Shown here: positions 19,670 to 38,106 of the stretch, one piece after another | Layout: every line of letters starts with the position of its first letter | How positions within the stretch are numbered: position 1 is the stretch's first letter | Source of the DNA: Verrucomicrobiia bacterium | GTDB taxonomy: Bacteria; Verrucomicrobiota; Verrucomicrobiia; Limisphaerales; UBA11358 | Length of the DNA stretch: 38,106 nucleotides | Direction: 5' to 3' | Assembly: GCA_030038175.1 (NCBI GenBank) | Contig: JASHPN010000399.1 | Coordinates: forward strand, 1-38,106 | Made by a program: the position numbers and the translations under genes | Notes under the pieces: model-generated | The model's input: only the letters and a program-made list of their open reading frames with translations | What the model was told of the DNA's origin: nothing | Databases searched by the model: none

Positions 19670-19720
19670 CCCTCTCCCAGCCTGCCGCGCCGAAGCAGTG
19701 CGAAGGCGGGCGGGAGAGGG
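19670..19720. repeat. Palindromic element CCCTCTCCC...GGGAGAGGG carrying a 30-nt inner palindrome (19681..19710)
   Basis: 9-bp perfect outer arms at 19670..19678 and 19712..19720; inner CCTGCCGCGCCGAAGCAGTGCGAAGGCGGG. Confidence 0.85.
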
Positions 19721-19809
19721 CAGGGGTGAGGGAGAGTCGTTCAAACGAGAATCCCTTGCGTCTCATGAAAATCCTTCATTCGATCATATCTCCATTCGCA
19801 AGGGCGCCC

Positions 19810-29402: not shown

Positions 29403-31157
29403 TTACTTCTTAAAATAAAGCTCTTCCGCGTTCCATGTGACTTGATAATAGCTCAGCGCGGTTGGGCGCACGTTTCCGATGTCCGGCCGGATGGCCGCGT
29501 AATAAATAGGCGTAACGGTAAAGATCAGCGGTTGTTCGTCGGCCATAATCTCCTGGACTTCATTGAAATCCTTTTCGCGCGCGGCCAGGTCGAGCGTTTG
29601 CATTTGCGCGTCCATCAAATAATCCATCCGCGCTTCCCAGGAGGTTGAAGGAGTTTTCTGTTGGGGAAACCAATAATGGTCATAACCGCTGGATTTGAGG
29701 TTATTCATCAATCCGTAAGGGTCCGTTCCGGTGTCGGAATAATTGCCCATCAAAACGCACTCATAATCGAACGTGTCGTCAATTTTGGTAATGAGCGTGT
29801 CGAAATTGATTGGCTGGAAGATAACCTGGAGGCCGAGTTTTTGAAGTTCCGAAGTAATCAGAACGCAGGTCTTAATCCGCTCGTTGTTCTCGATGTCGGT
29901 ATTGAAAACAAAAACGATTTTATTGCCGTTGGAATCGGTCAAAAACGCGTCGCCATTTCGCCTTTCGATCCCGATTTCTTTCAACAGTTCCAGCGCCTTC
30001 GCCGGGTCATAGGGATAGGTCTTTGTTTTGGGATCATACCAATTCTGATAGCCGGAGGTCATCAATCCGTATTGCGGAACGCCGCGATCGTCGTCAACGG
30101 CCTTGAGAATCGCGTTGCGGTCAATCGCATAGGAGACCGCCTGGCGAAATTTTTCGTTGCGAAACCATTTTAATTTGACCGGGTCCACGTAAGGTTTTCC
30201 CGTGTGAGGATTAATGCTGGTGTTTTCGTTGAACCAAAAAAACGTGGTCATCAGTCCGATACCCGGTTCGAGGAGATTGATTTTGCCTTGAGCGGAAGCG
30301 GCCTTGAACTCGTCGTAATCGTACGGATAAATGGAATCAACCGCGTCGCTTTCACCGGCCAAAAAATTGAGATCCTGCGCGTTATAATCCGGCACGGTGG
30401 AAAAGATGATTTCATCAAAATAGGGAAGCCGCGTGCCGTTTGTGTCCACTTCAATGAAGTAGGGATTGCGTTGCAGCACGGCGTATTGGCCCTGTTTATA
30501 TTCCTTAAGGCAATACGGCCCCTCACCCACGATGTCAGCCGGCTTCCAATCCACTCCATAAGCCGCCGGGAAACTGGCATTCGCATATTTCGCCAGAACG
30601 TGTTTGGGGTAGATCGGTACCGTGCTGGCAAACGCCTGCAAAAAAGGCGCGAAGACTTCCGGAGTGACGACTTGAACCGTCAGGTCATCGAGCTTGCTCA
30701 CCACAAACTTTTTGCCATCCACAATAAATTCGTCCCGCACCCAGTTCGGGATTTCCGGGTTATAGATGATATCGTTCCACGTAAAGACCACATCGTCGGC
30801 CGTGAGCGGCGACCCATCGCTCCAATAGAGGTTCTTTCGCAGTTTAAACGTCCAGGTTTTGCCGTCGGGCGAATTGGTCCAGGATTCCGCCAGGGCCGGT
30901 TTGACCGTCTGGGTGGGCACGTCGAAGTTCAGCAGCCCCCAAAACATGAACCGTCCGATATAGCGCGAGGCCAATTCGTCGGCCACGAGATAATTAAAAG
31001 TTTTTGGTTCGCGAAGTTCGCACACGACAAACCGGCCGCCGCGATTGCCCGGCGGACAATTAACCACCACCGGCGGATCCGGAAGCGGATAGTTTGCCTC
31101 AGGTTTTTGCGGAGAAGTCGATTGCCTGCCGCACCCCGCCACGCAAAACGCCGCCAT
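29403..31157 (-). CDS. Extracellular solute-binding lipoprotein family 5 (peptide ABC transporter), paralog 1; true start uncertain
   Basis: Lipobox VAGC; NSPDGKTWTFKLRKNLYWSDGSPLTADDVVFTWNDI typical of SBP_bac_5. Frame is open upstream to 31424 through repeat DNA; 31157 is the nearest in-frame ATG and may not be the real start. Confidence 0.88.
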   Translation of the reverse strand: MAAFCVAGCGRQSTSPQKPEANYPLPDPPVVVNCPPGNRGGRFVVCELREPKTFNYLVADELASRYIGRFMFWGLLNFDVPTQTVKPALAESWTNSPDGKTWTFKLRKNLYWSDGSPLTADDVVFTWNDIIYNPEIPNWVRDEFIVDGKKFVVSKLDDLTVQVVTPEVFAPFLQAFASTVPIYPKHVLAKYANASFPAAYGVDWKPADIVGEGPYCLKEYKQGQYAVLQRNPYFIEVDTNGTRLPYFDEIIFSTVPDYNAQDLNFLAGESDAVDSIYPYDYDEFKAASAQGKINLLEPGIGLMTTFFWFNENTSINPHTGKPYVDPVKLKWFRNEKFRQAVSYAIDRNAILKAVDDDRGVPQYGLMTSGYQNWYDPKTKTYPYDPAKALELLKEIGIERRNGDAFLTDSNGNKIVFVFNTDIENNERIKTCVLITSELQKLGLQVIFQPINFDTLITKIDDTFDYECVLMGNYSDTGTDPYGLMNNLKSSGYDHYWFPQQKTPSTSWEARMDYLMDAQMQTLDLAAREKDFNEVQEIMADEQPLIFTVTPIYYAAIRPDIGNVRPTALSYYQVTWNAEELYFKK

Positions 31158-31220
31158 CAATAATACTGCGTGGAAAACCCACTTTACCGGCGAAAATTTT
31201 TCGGCGCAGCCGCAAACTGA

Positions 31221-31291
31221 AAACCCCGGAGGGGTGACGGAAAGTAGCCCGGGGTAAGCGAGTCTTCGAGCGCCACCCCGGGTCTGTGACG
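31221..31291. repeat. Dispersed-repeat-like palindromic element AACCCCGGAGGGGTGACGG...AGCCCGGGGT...ACCCCGGGTCT
   Basis: CCCCGGAGGGG mini-palindrome and long inverted repeat CCCGGGGT/ACCCCGGG, in the gap between two tandem SBP genes. Confidence 0.65.
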
Positions 31292-31450
31292 TCCCATATT
31301 CCGCCGCTAATTGCGAAGCCGCGCGATAGCGCGAGTCTGATCTGCGGTAAAATTCATAAACGCCGTCCCGTTCCGCCGAAGGCACAAAGGCACAGCGGTC
31401 AAAGATCCTCTGGATTTTTAACATATTTTTCTCTGCGCCTCGATTGCCAA

Positions 31451-33271
31451 TTATTTTTTATAGTACAATTCTTCCGCATTCCAGGTGGCAATATTGCCGC
31501 CCAACGCCGCTGGCCGCACGTTGCCGACATCCGAACGGATCGCCGCGTACAAATCGGGAATGACCAGAAAGATCATGGGTTGTTGTTCGGCGAGGATTTT
31601 CTGGACTTCATCGTAATCTTTTACGCGCTCCGCCATGTCCAGCGTTTCACTCTGGGCATCCATCAAATAATCAATCCGGGCTTCCCACGGTGTTGAAGGC
31701 GTCTTTTCGCGCGGGAACCATTCATGCGTATAACCGCTCGATTGCAGGATATTCATATTGTCGCAGGGATCGGCAACCTGCTGTGGGCCCATGGTGATCA
31801 GGGCGCAATCGTAATTGAAAGTATCGTCCAGCCTCGACATGAGCGTATTAAACTCAATCGGTTGAAAAATGACTTTCATCCCGAGTTTTTGCAGGTCAGC
31901 CGCAATGAGCACCCCGGTTTTTTCTTTCGAACTGTTGCCGGTATTGGTGTTGAGCACAAATTCAATTCGGTGCCCGCCGGCGTCAGTCAAAAAAGTATCG
32001 CCATTCCGCCTTTCGATTCCGATTTCCTTCAATAACTCAAGGGCCATTTGAGGGTCGTAGGGATAGGTTCTGGTATTCGGGTCGTACCATTGTTTGTCGC
32101 CCGGAGTTTCCGGCCCGAACTCAGGCAGCCCGCGGCCCGAATAGACCGATTGGAGGATGGCCTGGCGGTTTATTCCACAGGAAACAGCCTGCCGAAACTT
32201 CGCATTTCGAAACCATTGCAATTTAACCGGATCCACATACGGCTTGCCGTTCTGATCCATGTTGGTGTTCTGGTTGAAACACAAAAAGCGCATTTCCAGG
32301 CCGACGCCCGGATCAAGAAAATTGAATTTGCCCTGGTCCGCCCCCGACTTGAAGGTGTCATACGCGTAAGGATAAATCCATTCATCCACGTCGCCTTCCC
32401 CGCTTAAAAAGCGCAGCGACATGGCGTCAAAGTCGGGCACGACTGGAAAGATCAGATCGTCAAAGTAAGGCAGGCGGGTCCCGTTGGTGTCCACTTCGAG
32501 AAAATAAGGATTCCGTTCCAGAATCGTGTATTGCGCGGCCTTATATTCTTTCAAACAATACGGACCGCTGCCGACGATGTCTGCCGGTTTCCAATTGACG
32601 CTATACGCCGACTCAAAGGCTCCATCGGCGACCGATTTTTCCAAAATATGCTTTGGCAAAATTTTGGTGGTCCCAAATTCGGACAAAAACGGCGCATAAA
32701 CTTCCGGCGTCTCCACCTGGACCGTCAAATCATCCACTTTGCTGACCTTGAATGGCTTGCCATTGATGATGAACATGTCACGCGTGACATTATTGATGGC
32801 GGGGTTGAAAATAACGTCATTCCAGGTAAACACCACGTCATCCGCCGTCAGCGGCGCCCCGTCGCTCCAACGCAGGTTTTTCCGCAAACGTAACGTCCAT
32901 GTTTTGCCGTCAGGCGAATTGGTCCAGAAATCCGCCAAACCGGGTTCCACCGTCTGGTTCTGCTGATCAAAATTCAGCAGCCCCCAAAACATGAACCGGA
33001 TAATCTCATAGGAGGACTGCTCGTTTTGAGTAATCGGATTGAAGGTCTTGGGATCGCCAATCTCGCTGATAATAAACTTTCCCCCGCGGATCCCTGGCTG
33101 GCAATTCGCCACCACCGGCGGGTCCGGAAGCGGATAATTTGCCGCCGGCTTGGGCGATGAAGCCGATTGCCTGCCGCATCCGGCCAGGCAACCCGCCGCC
33201 ATCAGCAATAAAACTGCGTAAAAAGTCCCCTTTCTTTTTGAAAATACCTTGGGACCCTGAACCTTCGCCAC
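31451..33271 (-). CDS. Extracellular solute-binding lipoprotein family 5, paralog 2; true start uncertain
   Basis: Lipobox LAGCGRQ; TNSPDGKTWTLRLRKNLRWSDGAPLTADDVVFTWNDVIFNP. ORF extends to 33589 through repeat DNA; an in-frame GTG at 33271 is one possible start. Confidence 0.88.
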   Translation of the reverse strand: MAKVQGPKVFSKRKGTFYAVLLLMAAGCLAGCGRQSASSPKPAANYPLPDPPVVANCQPGIRGGKFIISEIGDPKTFNPITQNEQSSYEIIRFMFWGLLNFDQQNQTVEPGLADFWTNSPDGKTWTLRLRKNLRWSDGAPLTADDVVFTWNDVIFNPAINNVTRDMFIINGKPFKVSKVDDLTVQVETPEVYAPFLSEFGTTKILPKHILEKSVADGAFESAYSVNWKPADIVGSGPYCLKEYKAAQYTILERNPYFLEVDTNGTRLPYFDDLIFPVVPDFDAMSLRFLSGEGDVDEWIYPYAYDTFKSGADQGKFNFLDPGVGLEMRFLCFNQNTNMDQNGKPYVDPVKLQWFRNAKFRQAVSCGINRQAILQSVYSGRGLPEFGPETPGDKQWYDPNTRTYPYDPQMALELLKEIGIERRNGDTFLTDAGGHRIEFVLNTNTGNSSKEKTGVLIAADLQKLGMKVIFQPIEFNTLMSRLDDTFNYDCALITMGPQQVADPCDNMNILQSSGYTHEWFPREKTPSTPWEARIDYLMDAQSETLDMAERVKDYDEVQKILAEQQPMIFLVIPDLYAAIRSDVGNVRPAALGGNIATWNAEELYYKK

Positions 33272-33351
33272 CGCGCCTGCGTTCCTTATTGCGTAGGAGC
33301 CGACGCCCGCCGCGCCATAGCCTGGCGAAGGCGGGTGAGGAGGCTCTGACT
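33267..33351. repeat. Dispersed element GCCACCGCGC..GCGTAGGAGCCGACG[30-nt palindrome]TGAGGAGGCTCTGACT
   Basis: Matches the copy at 37913..37963 except for an extra 30 nt (33306..33335). Confidence 0.85.
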
Positions 33352-33412
33352 GATCTGGTCCATGATCTCTCGATTGCGCTTGCGTTTTGGAGTGCGGCGG
33401 CAAGCAAAGCGC

Positions 33413-33490
33413 GACGCCGCTTTTGAACGACATGCGCTCTTTGAGAACGAATTTGTCGGCGGACGAGCAGCAGCATTCCAAAGCGGCGTC
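33413..33490. repeat. Inverted repeat GACGCCGCTTT (33413..33423) / AAAGCGGCGTC (33480..33490)
   Basis: Perfect 11-bp arms with 56-nt spacer; the left arm is part of the imperfect palindrome GTGCGGCGGCAAGCAAAGCGCGACGCCGC. Confidence 0.7.
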
Positions 33491-33560
33491 ACAGCCACCG
33501 CGGTCCAGGACCTTCGGCGATCCAATCGGCTTATTGAAAAATCGAAATTTCACTGCCGAT

Positions 33561-35366
33561 TTATTTTTCGAAATAAAGCTCCTCGGCATTCCAGGTCGCG
33601 GGCGAATCGCTCAAGACCGTCGCGCGCACATTGCCGATTTTGGGATTGATTGCCGCGTACGTGTTCGGCGTTATCGTAAAGACAAGGGGCTGCTGTTCGG
33701 CAATGATTTCCTGGACTTCGTCGTAGTCCTTTTTTCTTTGGTTTTCATCAAGCGTTTGCATTTGGTCGTTCATTAAATCATCCATCCGCGCCTCCCACGG
33801 CGTCGAAGGCGTCTTTTCCTCGGGGAACCATTCGTGCGTAAAACCGCTGGATTCGATCACGTTCATACCGCTGCTGGGGTCGGCCAAACCTCCGGAACCC
33901 AATGCGCCCAAAATACAATCAAAATCGAAGGTGTCGGATAATTTGTCCTCCAACGAATTAAATTCAACGGGTTGGAAAATGACTTTGATTCCGAGCTTCT
34001 GCAAATCTTTCGTGATCAATAGCGCCTGACTTTCCGCCGAAGAACTGCCGGTCATGGAATTCATGACAAACTCGATCCTGTTTCCGTCTGAGTCGGTCAA
34101 ATTATCGTTGCCGTTCCGTTTTTCAATCCCGATTTCCTTCAACAACTCCAGCGCCTTTTGCGGGTTGTAAGGATAAGTCGCGATTTTTGGGTCAAACCAC
34201 TTTTTGTTCGCCGGCGACTCCATGCCATAGGACGGAATTGCCCGGCCGAAATAGATGGACCGGACCATCTCCTGGCGGTCAATCGCATATGAAATGGCCT
34301 GGCGGAATTTGGTGTTGCGGAACCATTTCAACTTCGCCGGATCCACGTCGGGTTTGCCCGTTTTGGCGTTCACATTCGTGTTTTCATTGAAACACAGAAA
34401 TTCCCTCATCACGCCCACACCCGGCTCCAGCAATGTGCACTTTCCCTGGGCTTCCGCGGCTTTGAACGAGTCGTATTGTGATGGTATAACCTCGTCATCC
34501 ACGTCGCTCTCACCGCTGAGCATGCGCAAAGACATCGCGTTAAAACTTGGGACGACGGTGAAAATAACGTCGTCAAAGTAAGGCAGGCGCGTGCCGTTGG
34601 TGTCCACTTCCAGAAAATACGGATTTCGTTCAGCAATGGTGTATTGGGCGGTCTTGTATTCTTTCAGGCGATACGGGCCGCACCCAACAACTTGTGCGGG
34701 ATCCGAATTAACGCTGTAGGCCGAGGTGAAAGTTCCGTCGGCCACGGACTTTTCAAGAATATGTTTCGGGATGATTGGGACATTTCCAAAGGTCACTAAA
34801 AACGGAGCATAGACCTGCGGGGTGACCACTTGAACGGTTAAATCGTCCAATTTGCTGATCGTAAACTTCTTGCCGTTGATGATAAACTGGTCGCGTGTGA
34901 CATTATCAATCTTTGGGTTATAAATAACGTCATTCCACGTGAACACCACGTCATCGGCCGTGAGCGGCGCGCCGTCGCTCCAACGCAGATTTTTTCGCAA
35001 TCGCAACGTCCACGTTTTGCCGTCGGGCGAGTTGGTCCAGAAATCGGCAAGCCCTGGCTCGATCGTTTGGTTTTGCTGATCAAAATTGAGCAGCCCCCAA
35101 AATAGAAACCGGTTAATGTCAATGGAAGACTGTTCATTCTCGGTGATCGGATTGAAGGTTTTGGGGTCGCCGATTTCGCTGATGATAAACCGTCCGCCGC
35201 GGATCCCCGCATGGCAATTGGCCACCACGGGCGGATCAGGCAGTGGATAGTTCGTCGCCGAGTTTTCCGATACAGCGGTTCCGGACTTTGAACCGCAACC
35301 GGAGAGACAAAACGCCGCGGCGCCGAAAACGGCCACCGCCTGGAGCAGCTTCATATTCATCCTCAT
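33561..35366 (-). CDS. Extracellular solute-binding lipoprotein family 5, paralog 3
   Basis: MRMNMKLLQAVAVFGAAAFCLSGCGSK signal peptide/lipobox; SBP_bac_5 motifs as in paralogs 1 and 2. Confidence 0.92.
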   Translation of the reverse strand: MRMNMKLLQAVAVFGAAAFCLSGCGSKSGTAVSENSATNYPLPDPPVVANCHAGIRGGRFIISEIGDPKTFNPITENEQSSIDINRFLFWGLLNFDQQNQTIEPGLADFWTNSPDGKTWTLRLRKNLRWSDGAPLTADDVVFTWNDVIYNPKIDNVTRDQFIINGKKFTISKLDDLTVQVVTPQVYAPFLVTFGNVPIIPKHILEKSVADGTFTSAYSVNSDPAQVVGCGPYRLKEYKTAQYTIAERNPYFLEVDTNGTRLPYFDDVIFTVVPSFNAMSLRMLSGESDVDDEVIPSQYDSFKAAEAQGKCTLLEPGVGVMREFLCFNENTNVNAKTGKPDVDPAKLKWFRNTKFRQAISYAIDRQEMVRSIYFGRAIPSYGMESPANKKWFDPKIATYPYNPQKALELLKEIGIEKRNGNDNLTDSDGNRIEFVMNSMTGSSSAESQALLITKDLQKLGIKVIFQPVEFNSLEDKLSDTFDFDCILGALGSGGLADPSSGMNVIESSGFTHEWFPEEKTPSTPWEARMDDLMNDQMQTLDENQRKKDYDEVQEIIAEQQPLVFTITPNTYAAINPKIGNVRATVLSDSPATWNAEELYFEK

Positions 35367-35462
35367 CGCGAAAACAGTCGCCTTTTCGGCCCTAAATGTC
35401 GAGTCTTTGGTTTTAACTCGCGCATACTGTCTTTTCTGCCAAAATTGCGCGATAATTTTGCG

Positions 35463-36428
35463 ATGTGGCAATATATCTTAAAGCGGCTTCTGCATATGAT
35501 TCCGCTTTTGCTGGGCGTGTCGTTGCTGACGTTTCTGCTCATGGCCCTTTCGCCCGGGAATTATTTTACGGCCCTCCAGCAGAATCCCCAGATTTCGCCC
35601 CAAACCATTGCGCAACTCAAGGCGGAGTTTCATCTCGATAAGGCCTGGTACGTGCAATACATCTTCTGGCTCAAAAATGTGTTGTGCGGAAATTTCGGTT
35701 ATTCCATGGCCTATAAAATCTCCGCGACCTCCCTCATTATGGCGCGACTTTGGAATACGTTCGTCCTCGCTTTTTGCGCGCTCATTATTGCGTGGGGCAT
35801 CGCGATACCGCTGGGCATCTGGGCCGCCGTCAAGAAAGGTTCATGGGTGGACCATGCCTGCTCTTTGTTTGCGTTCGTGGGTTTGTCGGTGCCCGATGTC
35901 CTGCTTTCGCTCCTGGCCTTGTGGTTTGCCGCCTCAACCGGCTGGTTTCCCGTGGGCGGGGCGGAAAGCCCGCTCTACGATTTCATGACTCCATCCCAAC
36001 AATTCTGGGACCACGTGCATCATCTCATCCTCCCGGCGATCGTCCTGGCCGCCTCGGACCTGGCCGGCATCATGCGCCGGATGCGGTCGTGCCTGCTCGA
36101 TACGTTGCGCGCCGAATACGTCACCGCCGCGCGGGCGCGCGGCCTGGGAGAAGGCTGGGTCGTGTATAAACACGCGCTCCGCAATGCCATCAACCCGCTG
36201 CTCACGATTTTTGGTTATTCGCTGGCCTCCCTGCTCAGCGGGGCTTTCATCGTGGAAAATATCATGGCCTGGCCGGGCCTGGGACGGCTCACGATTGAGG
36301 CGTTTTTTGCGAAAGATTCCTACCTGGTGGTGGATACCGTGGTCATGGCCACCGCGCTGCTGGTGATGGGCAATTTCATTGCGGACTTGCTGCTGGCATG
36401 GACCGATCCCCGAATCCGTCTCAAATAG
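35463..36428 (+). CDS. Peptide/oligopeptide ABC transporter permease (DppB/OppB type)
   Basis: MWQYILKRLLHMIPLLLGVSLLTFLLMALSPGNYF; EYVTAARARGLGEGWVVYKHALRNAINPLLTIFG. Confidence 0.95.
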   Translation: MWQYILKRLLHMIPLLLGVSLLTFLLMALSPGNYFTALQQNPQISPQTIAQLKAEFHLDKAWYVQYIFWLKNVLCGNFGYSMAYKISATSLIMARLWNTFVLAFCALIIAWGIAIPLGIWAAVKKGSWVDHACSLFAFVGLSVPDVLLSLLALWFAASTGWFPVGGAESPLYDFMTPSQQFWDHVHHLILPAIVLAASDLAGIMRRMRSCLLDTLRAEYVTAARARGLGEGWVVYKHALRNAINPLLTIFGYSLASLLSGAFIVENIMAWPGLGRLTIEAFFAKDSYLVVDTVVMATALLVMGNFIADLLLAWTDPRIRLK

Positions 36429-36438
36429 CCATATAACC

Positions 36439-37527
36439 ATGGAAACCGCCCAGCCCACTCCCGTCATCGTCATGCAGCCGGCCCTGTCGCCGTGGCGATT
36501 GTTTTGGCAGCGGCTGAAACATCGGAAGATCGCCATGACCGGTGCGTGGATCCTGGCGGTGCTTTACACGGTCGCCATTTTTGCCGGATTCATCTCGCCC
36601 TATCGGTACGATACGATCCACGACAACGCCTTTTTTCATCCCCCGGTTTGGCCGGCCTTTCACGGTTTGCGCCTGGCCGTGCCGCGTTCGCAAACGCTGC
36701 CGGGAGAATTTGCCTATCGGAACGTGCGGAGCGATACCAAACCGCTTCATTTTTTTGTTCGCGGCGGCGAGTATAAATTATTCGGTGTGATTCCGTGTTC
36801 AGTCCATTTGTTTGGCACGGGGGACGATAATTATCCGGTTTACCTCTTCGGCGCGGACCAATTCGGGCGGGACATTTTTTCGCGATTGCTTTACGGCTCG
36901 CAGATTTCGCTTTCGATCGGCATTGTGGGTATTTTGCTCTCATTCAGTGTGGGCATGATCGTCGGCGGCATTGCGGGCTATTTTGCCGGGCCGACGGACA
37001 CCGTCATCATGCGCCTGTGCGAACTGATTATGTCCATCCCGGCGCTGTATCTCATTATTTCGCTGCGCAACACGTTTCCGCCGGGCATGAGTTCTTCACA
37101 GGTGTATGCGATGATCGTAGTGATTTTAAGTTTCATCGGCTGGGCGAGCATGGCGCGGGTGATTCGCGGCATGGCCCTTTCGCTGCGGGAACAGCAATTC
37201 GTCCTGGCGGCGCGGGCGCTGGGGCAATCGCATTTGAAAGTCATTGTGCGGCACGTGCTGCCCAACACATTTTCCTATGTCATTGTGGCCGCGACCCTGA
37301 GCGTGCCGTATTACATCCTGGGCGAGGTAGTCCTCAGCTTTTTGGGCGTGGGAATCCAGGAACCGCAGGCGAGCTGGGGCAACATGTTGACGGCCGCGCA
37401 AAACACCGAATATTTGAAAAATTATCCATGGCTGCTCGCGCCGGGCGCGGCGATTTTTGTCACGGTCCTGGCCTTTAACTTTCTCGGGGACGGTCTAAGA
37501 GACGCGGCCGATACAAAGTCGGATTAG
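36439..37527 (+). CDS. Peptide/oligopeptide ABC transporter permease (DppC/OppC type)
   Basis: FGADQFGRDIFSRLLYGSQISLSIGIVGILLSFSVG; FVLAARALGQSHLKVIVRHVLPNTFSYVIVAATLSVPYYILGEVVLSFLGVGIQEPQASWGNML. Confidence 0.95.
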   Translation: METAQPTPVIVMQPALSPWRLFWQRLKHRKIAMTGAWILAVLYTVAIFAGFISPYRYDTIHDNAFFHPPVWPAFHGLRLAVPRSQTLPGEFAYRNVRSDTKPLHFFVRGGEYKLFGVIPCSVHLFGTGDDNYPVYLFGADQFGRDIFSRLLYGSQISLSIGIVGILLSFSVGMIVGGIAGYFAGPTDTVIMRLCELIMSIPALYLIISLRNTFPPGMSSSQVYAMIVVILSFIGWASMARVIRGMALSLREQQFVLAARALGQSHLKVIVRHVLPNTFSYVIVAATLSVPYYILGEVVLSFLGVGIQEPQASWGNMLTAAQNTEYLKNYPWLLAPGAAIFVTVLAFNFLGDGLRDAADTKSD

Positions 37528-37723
37528 GTGCGGCTTGTCGGGACTTGCGCCCCAGCAACCGCCAGCCGGCAAAGAGCAGCAAGCCAATGGTGATCAAGGC
37601 CATGACGCCCGGCTCAGGCACCGCGTCCGGGTCCGTAGGATCCGGAAATCCCGTCGTATCAGCATGGGCCGATAAAGAAAGCCCGATGACGAGCGCGGCC
37701 ATCCACCATTTAGCAGTTCTCAT
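37475..37723 (-). CDS. PEP-CTERM sorting-domain mini-protein (82 aa)
   Basis: MRTAKWWMAALVIGLSLSAHA signal peptide, DTTGFPDPTDPDA linker, VPEPGVMALITIGLLLFAGWRLLGRKSR PEP-CTERM-like anchor. Confidence 0.75.
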   Translation of the reverse strand: MRTAKWWMAALVIGLSLSAHADTTGFPDPTDPDAVPEPGVMALITIGLLLFAGWRLLGRKSRQAAPNPTLYRPRLLDRPRES

Positions 37724-37758
37724 ATAGAAACAGGTCTCACAATAAGCTGCCTCAAACT

Positions 37759-37794
37759 ATGCATTTTTGGGACGCCTGAATGCATATTTGGGAC
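37759..37794. promoter_or_regulatory. Two direct repeats ATGCATTTTTGGGAC / ATGCATATTTGGGAC
   Basis: 37759..37773 and 37780..37794, 14/15 identical, centre spacing 21 bp, upstream of the PEP-CTERM mini-gene start (37723, minus). Confidence 0.5.
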
Positions 37795-37912
37795 AGAAAC
37801 TAAGCGCTTCCAGGCAAAATGTCAATCCATCTCAAGATTGGGCGCATCCACAAACTGTTCTTGACCGCATCCTTTCGAAATTCTCATGCCTCGGGGCGAT
37901 GAACCCTAGCCA

Positions 37913-37963
37913 CTGCGCTTGCGCCCTCCAGTGCGCAGGAGCCGACGTGAGGAGGCTCTGACT
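37913..37963. repeat. Dispersed element, copy without the 30-nt palindrome: GCCACTGCGC..GCGCAGGAGCCGACG|TGAGGAGGCTCTGACT
   Basis: Matches 33267..33351 across the junction with the 30 nt absent. Confidence 0.8.
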
Positions 37964-38106
37964 TAAAGCCGGTTCATGGAGAGAGAGTCGCTCCAGCGCG
38001 TTCCCTGCCGAAATCAAGAACCGTGCGTGGATGCACCCTCTGCTTTAACTGCTCCCACTTTCGTCTTGCCATGGTCCGGATTTTATTGTTACATTTTTGT
38101 TTCAAA

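Follow-up and report, generated by a model that had tools for sequence, protein, structure and literature searches.

A dispersed 30-nt palindrome lodged in several palindromic repeat families of a Verrucomicrobiia genome

The SDRs of Nostoc and its relatives, the subject of a 2008 report by Elhai et al., are said to be dispersed hairpins of 21 to 27 nt which reportedly lie inside other repeats and palindromes, some of them often nested in their own copies. Copying through RNA or by a replication-based route is said to have been suggested for them, and we know of no enzyme assigned to them.

REPs lodged in palindromes have been reported briefly (Di Nocera et al. 2013; PMC3733652): GTAG-23 of T. 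roseum sits in the motif CCGSSCC(n3,4)GGSSCGG, which has hundreds of further copies in that genome, and GTAG-15 dimers of A. variabilis and CGTC-1 dimers of H. neapolitanus belong to the same report. The GC clusters of yeast mitochondria are short GC-rich palindromes (e.g., 42 nt) which merge with one another and are present or absent at the same sites (PMC4478555). REP palindromes are also a specific insertion target of IS elements (Tobes and Pareja 2006; PMC1525189), and the REPIN/RAYT system has been described by Bertels and Rainey (2011; PMC3116915).

Here, we analyzed a window of 38,106 nt, the whole stretch of DNA under study, together with the draft genome it comes from, and found a 30-nt palindromic unit in the loops and arm junctions of several palindromic repeats (hosts A to F). 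Like the Nostoc SDRs, the unit is a dispersed hairpin which lies within other repeats and within itself; compensatory changes backing the fold, a further SDR-type trait, were not in excess over shuffles in it. The unit differs from the SDRs in phylum, in sequence and in its length of 30 nt, and it occurs in several unrelated palindrome families with one fixed position and orientation in each. With the GTAG and CGTC REPs it has in common that a short palindromic repeat lies inside other palindromes, but those REPs carry a tag and have one target palindrome per family, whereas the unit lacks a tag at its ends, has more than one target palindrome and also lies within its own copies. GC clusters are mitochondrial and have an AG target duplication, while the unit is bacterial and has no visible duplication. 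The IS elements that target REPs are complete insertion sequences which encode a transposase, whereas the unit is 30 nt long and non-coding. Likeness to the REPIN/RAYT system belongs to the hosts, namely to A, with GTAG 5' of its hairpin and head-to-head pairs, and to C, which flanks a RAYT-like gene; the 30-nt unit, by contrast, is a single hairpin, not tagged with GTAG and not a REP doublet. The closest precedents are thus the cyanobacterial SDRs, the palindrome-lodged REPs of Thermomicrobium and Anabaena, and the yeast mitochondrial GC clusters. A literature search of partial coverage returned no report of such a unit in Verrucomicrobia. What is new here is how many unrelated palindromes serve as targets, together with the clear step of 0, 30 and 60 nt in the gaps between their arms.

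The unit and its host sites in the window

The unit, CCCGCCGCGCCATAGCCTGGCGAAGGCGGG, lies at 33306-33335 on the forward strand and was annotated as an inserted element on the basis of its fold and its genome family. It stands between the arms GGAGCCGACG (33296-33305) and TGAGGAGGCTC (33336-33346) of host repeat A, with GTAG just 5' of the arm. The occupied copy of host A spans 33258-33365 (forward strand, end points approximate), which is about 77 nt minus the insert, and ends in TGAACC...GGTCCA. In the empty copy at 37900-37976 on the same strand, the two arms are directly joined in a hairpin at 37938-37958. The first-pass annotation had placed a hairpin-forming block of 30 nt between these flanks and an empty site in the same window, and its coordinates and letters were right.

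As single-stranded DNA, the 30-mer folds at -13.1 kcal/mol (z -4.0), with stems of 6 bp and 5 bp and a 1x2 internal loop, and 0 of 200 shuffles folded equally well. The unit is an inverted repeat from end to end, which starts with C(C/T)TGCC and ends with GGCGGG; GTAG, where present, is in the inner loop. The occupied host A reaches -19 kcal/mol, and the empty hairpin alone is a weak fold (-4.1 kcal/mol, not better than shuffles). When the arm pattern was searched with a gap of 0 to 30 nt, there were two matches in the window and none in 100 dinucleotide-preserving shuffles. The full host A is about 77 nt long with imperfect ends TGAACC...GGTTCA, and the left parts of its two copies (33244-33305 and 37886-37947) are 74% identical, so that the similarity goes beyond the 31 nt noticed earlier. 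An Rfam search of 33100-38106 returned no relevant family.

The second 30-nt unit of the window, CCTGCCGCGCCGAAGCAGTGCGAAGGCGGG, is at 19681-19710 on the forward strand, flanked by CCCTCTCCC and GGGAGAGGG. It occupies host palindrome B1 (CCCTCTCCCAG / unit / CGGGAGAGGG; 19670-19720, forward strand). Host site B2, GAGAGGGCAGGGG|TGAGGGAGAG, follows at 19714-19736 on the same strand and is empty in the window; elsewhere, seven other copies of B2 hold the 30-nt unit and three hold a 60-nt nested pair.

Other repeats and genes surround these sites. Right after the occupied host A is another dispersed repeat (33373-33520, TTGCGCTTGCGTTTTGGAGTGCGGCGGCAAGC...GCGACGCCGC), with about 80% identity to copies on other contigs of this genome and a core (33384-33429) that is about 78 to 96% identical in many genomes of the genus. 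This repeat and host A have a common head, (C)GCGCTTGCGTT, and therefore look like mosaics. Three tandem paralogous genes for apparent extracellular peptide-binding proteins of an ABC transporter (29403-35471; 61 to 81% DNA identity) adjoin two permease-like genes, and an empty host F (CCGGGGTAAGCGAGTCTTC g AGCGCCACCCC) lies at 31249-31279, upstream of a peptide-binding ABC transporter gene.

Family size, hosts and gap lengths

Using a search pattern built from four copies, we found 97 matches to the unit (two mismatches or fewer) in the 5.39-Mb genome and none to the reversed-pattern control. Across the genus, 24 of 49 genomes carried the unit, with 1 to 70 matches each (one mismatch or fewer), and the control gave a single match overall. 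The block is thus not confined to host A: at least six other palindrome families, itself included, hold it in the loop or where the arms join, and it also lies in places outside any recognised palindrome. Many units, and most of those read in relatives, are unhosted in this sense.

The hosts were studied in about 1.0 Mb of stretches from this genome picked around unit matches, so that the occupied fraction is biased upward while the gap lengths are unbiased. The sites are GAGCCGACG|TGAGGAGGCTC in host A, AGAGCCGCG(ACC/CGC)G|TGAGNNAGCG in host C, GGAGCGCGACTG|TGTCCCG...CCAGTCGCAGC in host D, CCTGCCTTGCCGTAGCTCTG|AGCGAAGGCAGG in host E (which is related to the unit) and CTGGGGTAAGCGAGTCTTCG|AGCGCCACCCC in host F. 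Every host (A, B1, B2, C, D, E and F) has both empty and occupied copies, the unit is usually exactly 30 nt long, and in the contexts read its ends are identical across unrelated hosts.

With relaxed arms, the gaps of host A in this megabase were 0 nt (n=10), 30 nt (n=9) or 29 nt (n=1), plus one 43-nt match whose content was not the unit. There is no continuum of lengths, which bears out the reading of discrete occupied and empty sites in the first-pass annotation. Of the two findings which that annotation had named as fatal to discrete insertion, a continuum of lengths and a block restricted to this host repeat, neither was observed. The gaps of the other hosts in the sampled megabase follow the same step: 0 nt (n=7), 30 nt (n=7) and 60 nt (n=3) in B2; 0 nt (n=32), 30 nt (n=10) and 62 nt (n=3) in C, with a few of 33 and 42 to 43 nt; 0 to 1 nt (n=9) and also 30 nt in E; 1 nt (n=2) and 31 nt (n=4) in F; and 0 and 30 nt in B1, plus a variant of 41 to 42 nt. 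The 60-nt gap of B2 and the 62-nt gap of C each hold a unit within a unit. In host D, the unit stands before an intact inner hairpin in about 8 of 71 two-armed copies. The 41- to 42-nt variant (L054, L051, L235 and L229 of this genome) has a longer inner stem, GTCCCGCTCCGAGCGGGAC, takes the same positions in B1 and C as the 30-nt unit, and is perhaps itself a nested hairpin.

Inspection of the contexts showed one constant orientation relative to the host for all units in A, C, D, E and F. Orientation was read by eye from the asymmetric core, as the palindromic ends of the unit made an automatic count ambiguous. The insertion point is often G|TGAG. No target duplication was evident in the host-borne copies, in agreement with what had been noticed in the window; at L269, where TCAACGCT stands on either side of the unit, a possible 8-nt duplication was discounted, since the tandem word was probably there beforehand. 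When the unit flanks were scored for stems in general, the score was weakly raised (13 of 133 exceeded the 99th percentile for random positions); the signal is weak because stems are short and loops large in the host hairpins.

Across 45 units, a single base pair showed a double change, with no excess over shuffles, and the sequences are perhaps too alike for such a comparison. Examined pair by pair, covariation lends no support to selection acting on the fold.

It is extremely improbable that the pattern is a chance resemblance or an artefact of assembly. The genome is a draft of 431 contigs and probably metagenome-assembled, but the sites number in the dozens on different contigs with exact lengths, shuffles and reversed controls gave none, and the family recurs in nearly half of the genus genomes surveyed.

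Several further contexts were recorded. In host D, the outer stem (GGAGCGCGRCTG...CCAGYCGCAGC) is fixed and encloses many differing small hairpins, among them TGTCCCGTCTGCGGGA, TGTCTCCCGATTTATCGGGAGA and TGTGCGATAGCA; this host is often arrayed at a spacing of about 150 to 160 nt (e.g., L050 8674-8996 and L229 12530-12690). At L047 10134 and at L294, the unit abuts or overlaps the 5' end of a putative tRNA gene (GCGGGTGTAGYTYAATGGTA...), its GGCGGG overlapping the tRNA start. Units inside reading frames were located at L293, L295, L069 (2095-2131) and L269; in two relatives and in this genome such units lie directly before a prepilin cleavage motif (AFSLLEVM / GFTLVEIL), and the unit at L269 is in frame within an apparent membrane protein gene. 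An in-frame unit of 30 nt adds 10 codons and keeps the frame, which recalls the Rickettsia palindromic elements. In another member of the Verrucomicrobia (H5_VER1, L168 146-250), a 26-nt A palindrome lies in reverse orientation in the loop of CCCTCTCCCAG...CGGGGGAGGGG, which suggests that the insertion of palindromes into palindromes extends beyond the 30-nt unit.

Insertion, deletion and spread with the host

An occupied and an empty site may arise by insertion of the block or by its loss. If the 30-nt hairpin were ancestral in host A, replication slippage could have removed it from the copies that look empty, and hairpins are indeed prone to deletion and both forms coexist in this genome, where exact arms gave 10 empty and 3 occupied copies and arm variants 20 and 10. 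However, empty host A was found in 27 of the 49 genus genomes, this one included. With exact arms, the A copies of the other genus genomes were all empty except for one with a 3-nt gap, and the unit-occupied form was confined to this genome. When relaxed arms were searched in relatives' loci totalling about 1 Mb, the empty form was the one seen across the order, with 180 empty and no unit-occupied copies; the few longer gaps held other sequence, several of them in unrelated phyla. The empty form of host A is therefore probably ancestral. Deletion also leaves unexplained a block with identical ends in unrelated hosts, and the short direct repeat that slippage requires is absent from the junction. 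Precise deletion, which the first-pass annotation had kept as its alternative, is thus very unlikely.

The host sequences point the same way. With the insert removed, occupied copies of host A resembled one another no more than they resembled empty ones (0.763 and 0.758; permutation p 0.42; 10 occupied and 20 empty copies), and the nearest relatives of the occupied host in the window are empty copies (95% to L012). Since the occupied hosts are unclustered and the A copies of relatives are empty, repeated independent insertion is favored over deletion. Identical 30-mers were found in different hosts (C and B1, E and B1, and E and C), which suggests that the unit moves independently of its host. 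In a DNA search of the genus, no orthologous site that differs in the presence of the unit was found, the relatives being too distant; at this locus the search matched only the flanking gene (66 to 73% identity) and other dispersed repeats. Taken together, we consider it very probable that a dispersed 30-nt palindrome has been inserted repeatedly.

Few entries of the unit per host family, followed by multiplication of host and unit together or by ectopic gene conversion between hosts, could also have filled the sites. Unit subtypes partly follow the host, with a CCTGTC...GGCGGA subtype in B2 and a ATAGCGAAGCGACGG subtype in D, so that some occupied copies probably spread as composites of host and unit. 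One identical unit is common to four A copies, and neighboring D copies mix occupied and empty members. On the other hand, the occupied A hosts do not cluster, the A copies at L027 and L039 have identical units while their flanks beyond the hairpin share little, and movement between unrelated hosts would still require insertion. As a full account, such spreading is unlikely; it is likely to be a contributor to the pattern rather than a replacement for insertion.

Candidate movers and significance

A search for RAYT-type genes, which the first-pass annotation had suggested, gave nine Y1_Tnp (Y1/HUH, RAYT-like) matches at eight or nine loci in this genome. At one of them, on contig C251, host family C stands on both sides of the gene, and a unit-bearing C copy is about 0.4 kb away; this arrangement supports REP-like hosts more than the identity of the mover of the unit. 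Units lie within 1.5 kb of three of the nine Y1 matches, and at least one of these is there as cargo of another repeat. Across the 49 genomes, the numbers of Y1 and unit matches were weakly correlated (rho 0.23, p 0.11), and one genome had five unit matches and no Y1 match.

A RAYT-mobilised REP or REPIN would carry a terminal GTAG (or GTRG) tag 5' of its stem, which the unit lacks, and in the contexts read the units were single in their hosts. The first-pass description of a REP/MITE-like unit calls for a caveat: its ends carry no GTAG tag, it shows no target duplication, and no transposase is tied to it. Host A itself looks like a REP: it has a GTAG tag 5' of its hairpin (GCGTAG-GAGCC...GGCTC) and forms head-to-head doublets, with about 45 +/- neighbor pairs at 32 to 115 nt, mostly 32 to 70 nt, among 209 copies. 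When three Y1 proteins of this genome were used as tblastn queries, no RAYT gene was found near host A in the A-bearing loci of relatives.

The fuller explanation, which we favor with some reserve, is that the unit would be one copy of a very small, non-coding and non-autonomous mobile palindrome that has been inserted many times in this genome. It would land by preference where a resident palindromic repeat has an unpaired tip or where the arms of such a repeat meet, its own copies included, and insertion into the latter would produce hairpins nested two and three deep. Insertion may act on single-stranded or hairpin DNA, on the lagging strand or in an extruded cruciform, and catalysis may be provided in trans by an HUH/Y1 (RAYT or IS200-like) transposase. 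The HUH/Y1 enzymes of the IS200/IS605-RAYT group act on single-stranded DNA (PMC6006769), and the unit resembles their products in its absent target duplication, its fixed orientation and its loop or junction sites (often G|TGAG). We propose the Y1/HUH route tentatively, because enzymes of this kind act on hairpins, leave no target duplication and insert with fixed polarity beside a short target, and because this genome encodes them. A more doubtful proposal is that an enzyme in these Verrucomicrobia would place the 30-nt hairpin, always in one orientation and precise to the nucleotide, at the tips of several unrelated hairpins, recognizing the target partly by its hairpin shape and also by a short motif such as G|TGAG. 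At the site in the window, the unit most likely has no selected function and is a neutral or selfish repeat.

Copies could instead be made through RNA by a reverse transcriptase, or during replication by template switching at stalled forks, and then be pasted into loops. Palindromes are expected to stall replication forks, the unit is small, no transposase is tied to it and the correlation with Y1 genes is weak, all of which would fit such copying; the constant ends, length and orientation of the unit, however, are not readily given by template switching. We regard this route as possible but rather unlikely. RNA-mediated or replication-based copying has been suggested for the yeast mitochondrial GC clusters (PMC4478555).

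How palindromes of 20 to 40 nt without genes of their own multiply in genomes is an old open question. Whichever enzyme or copying process moves it, the 30-nt unit resembles in its behavior a mobile element of about the smallest size known, and this genome offers a clean set, with a unit of fixed length and several independent target palindromes in empty and occupied copies. The self-nested copies give the relative order of events, and the set makes the choice of target (by sequence or by hairpin shape), the strand bias and the enzyme requirement testable. If hairpin shape is indeed recognized, this would be a shape-guided insertion system whose cargo is among the smallest known. The unit also explains part of the intergenic repeat mosaic in Pedosphaerales-type Verrucomicrobia.
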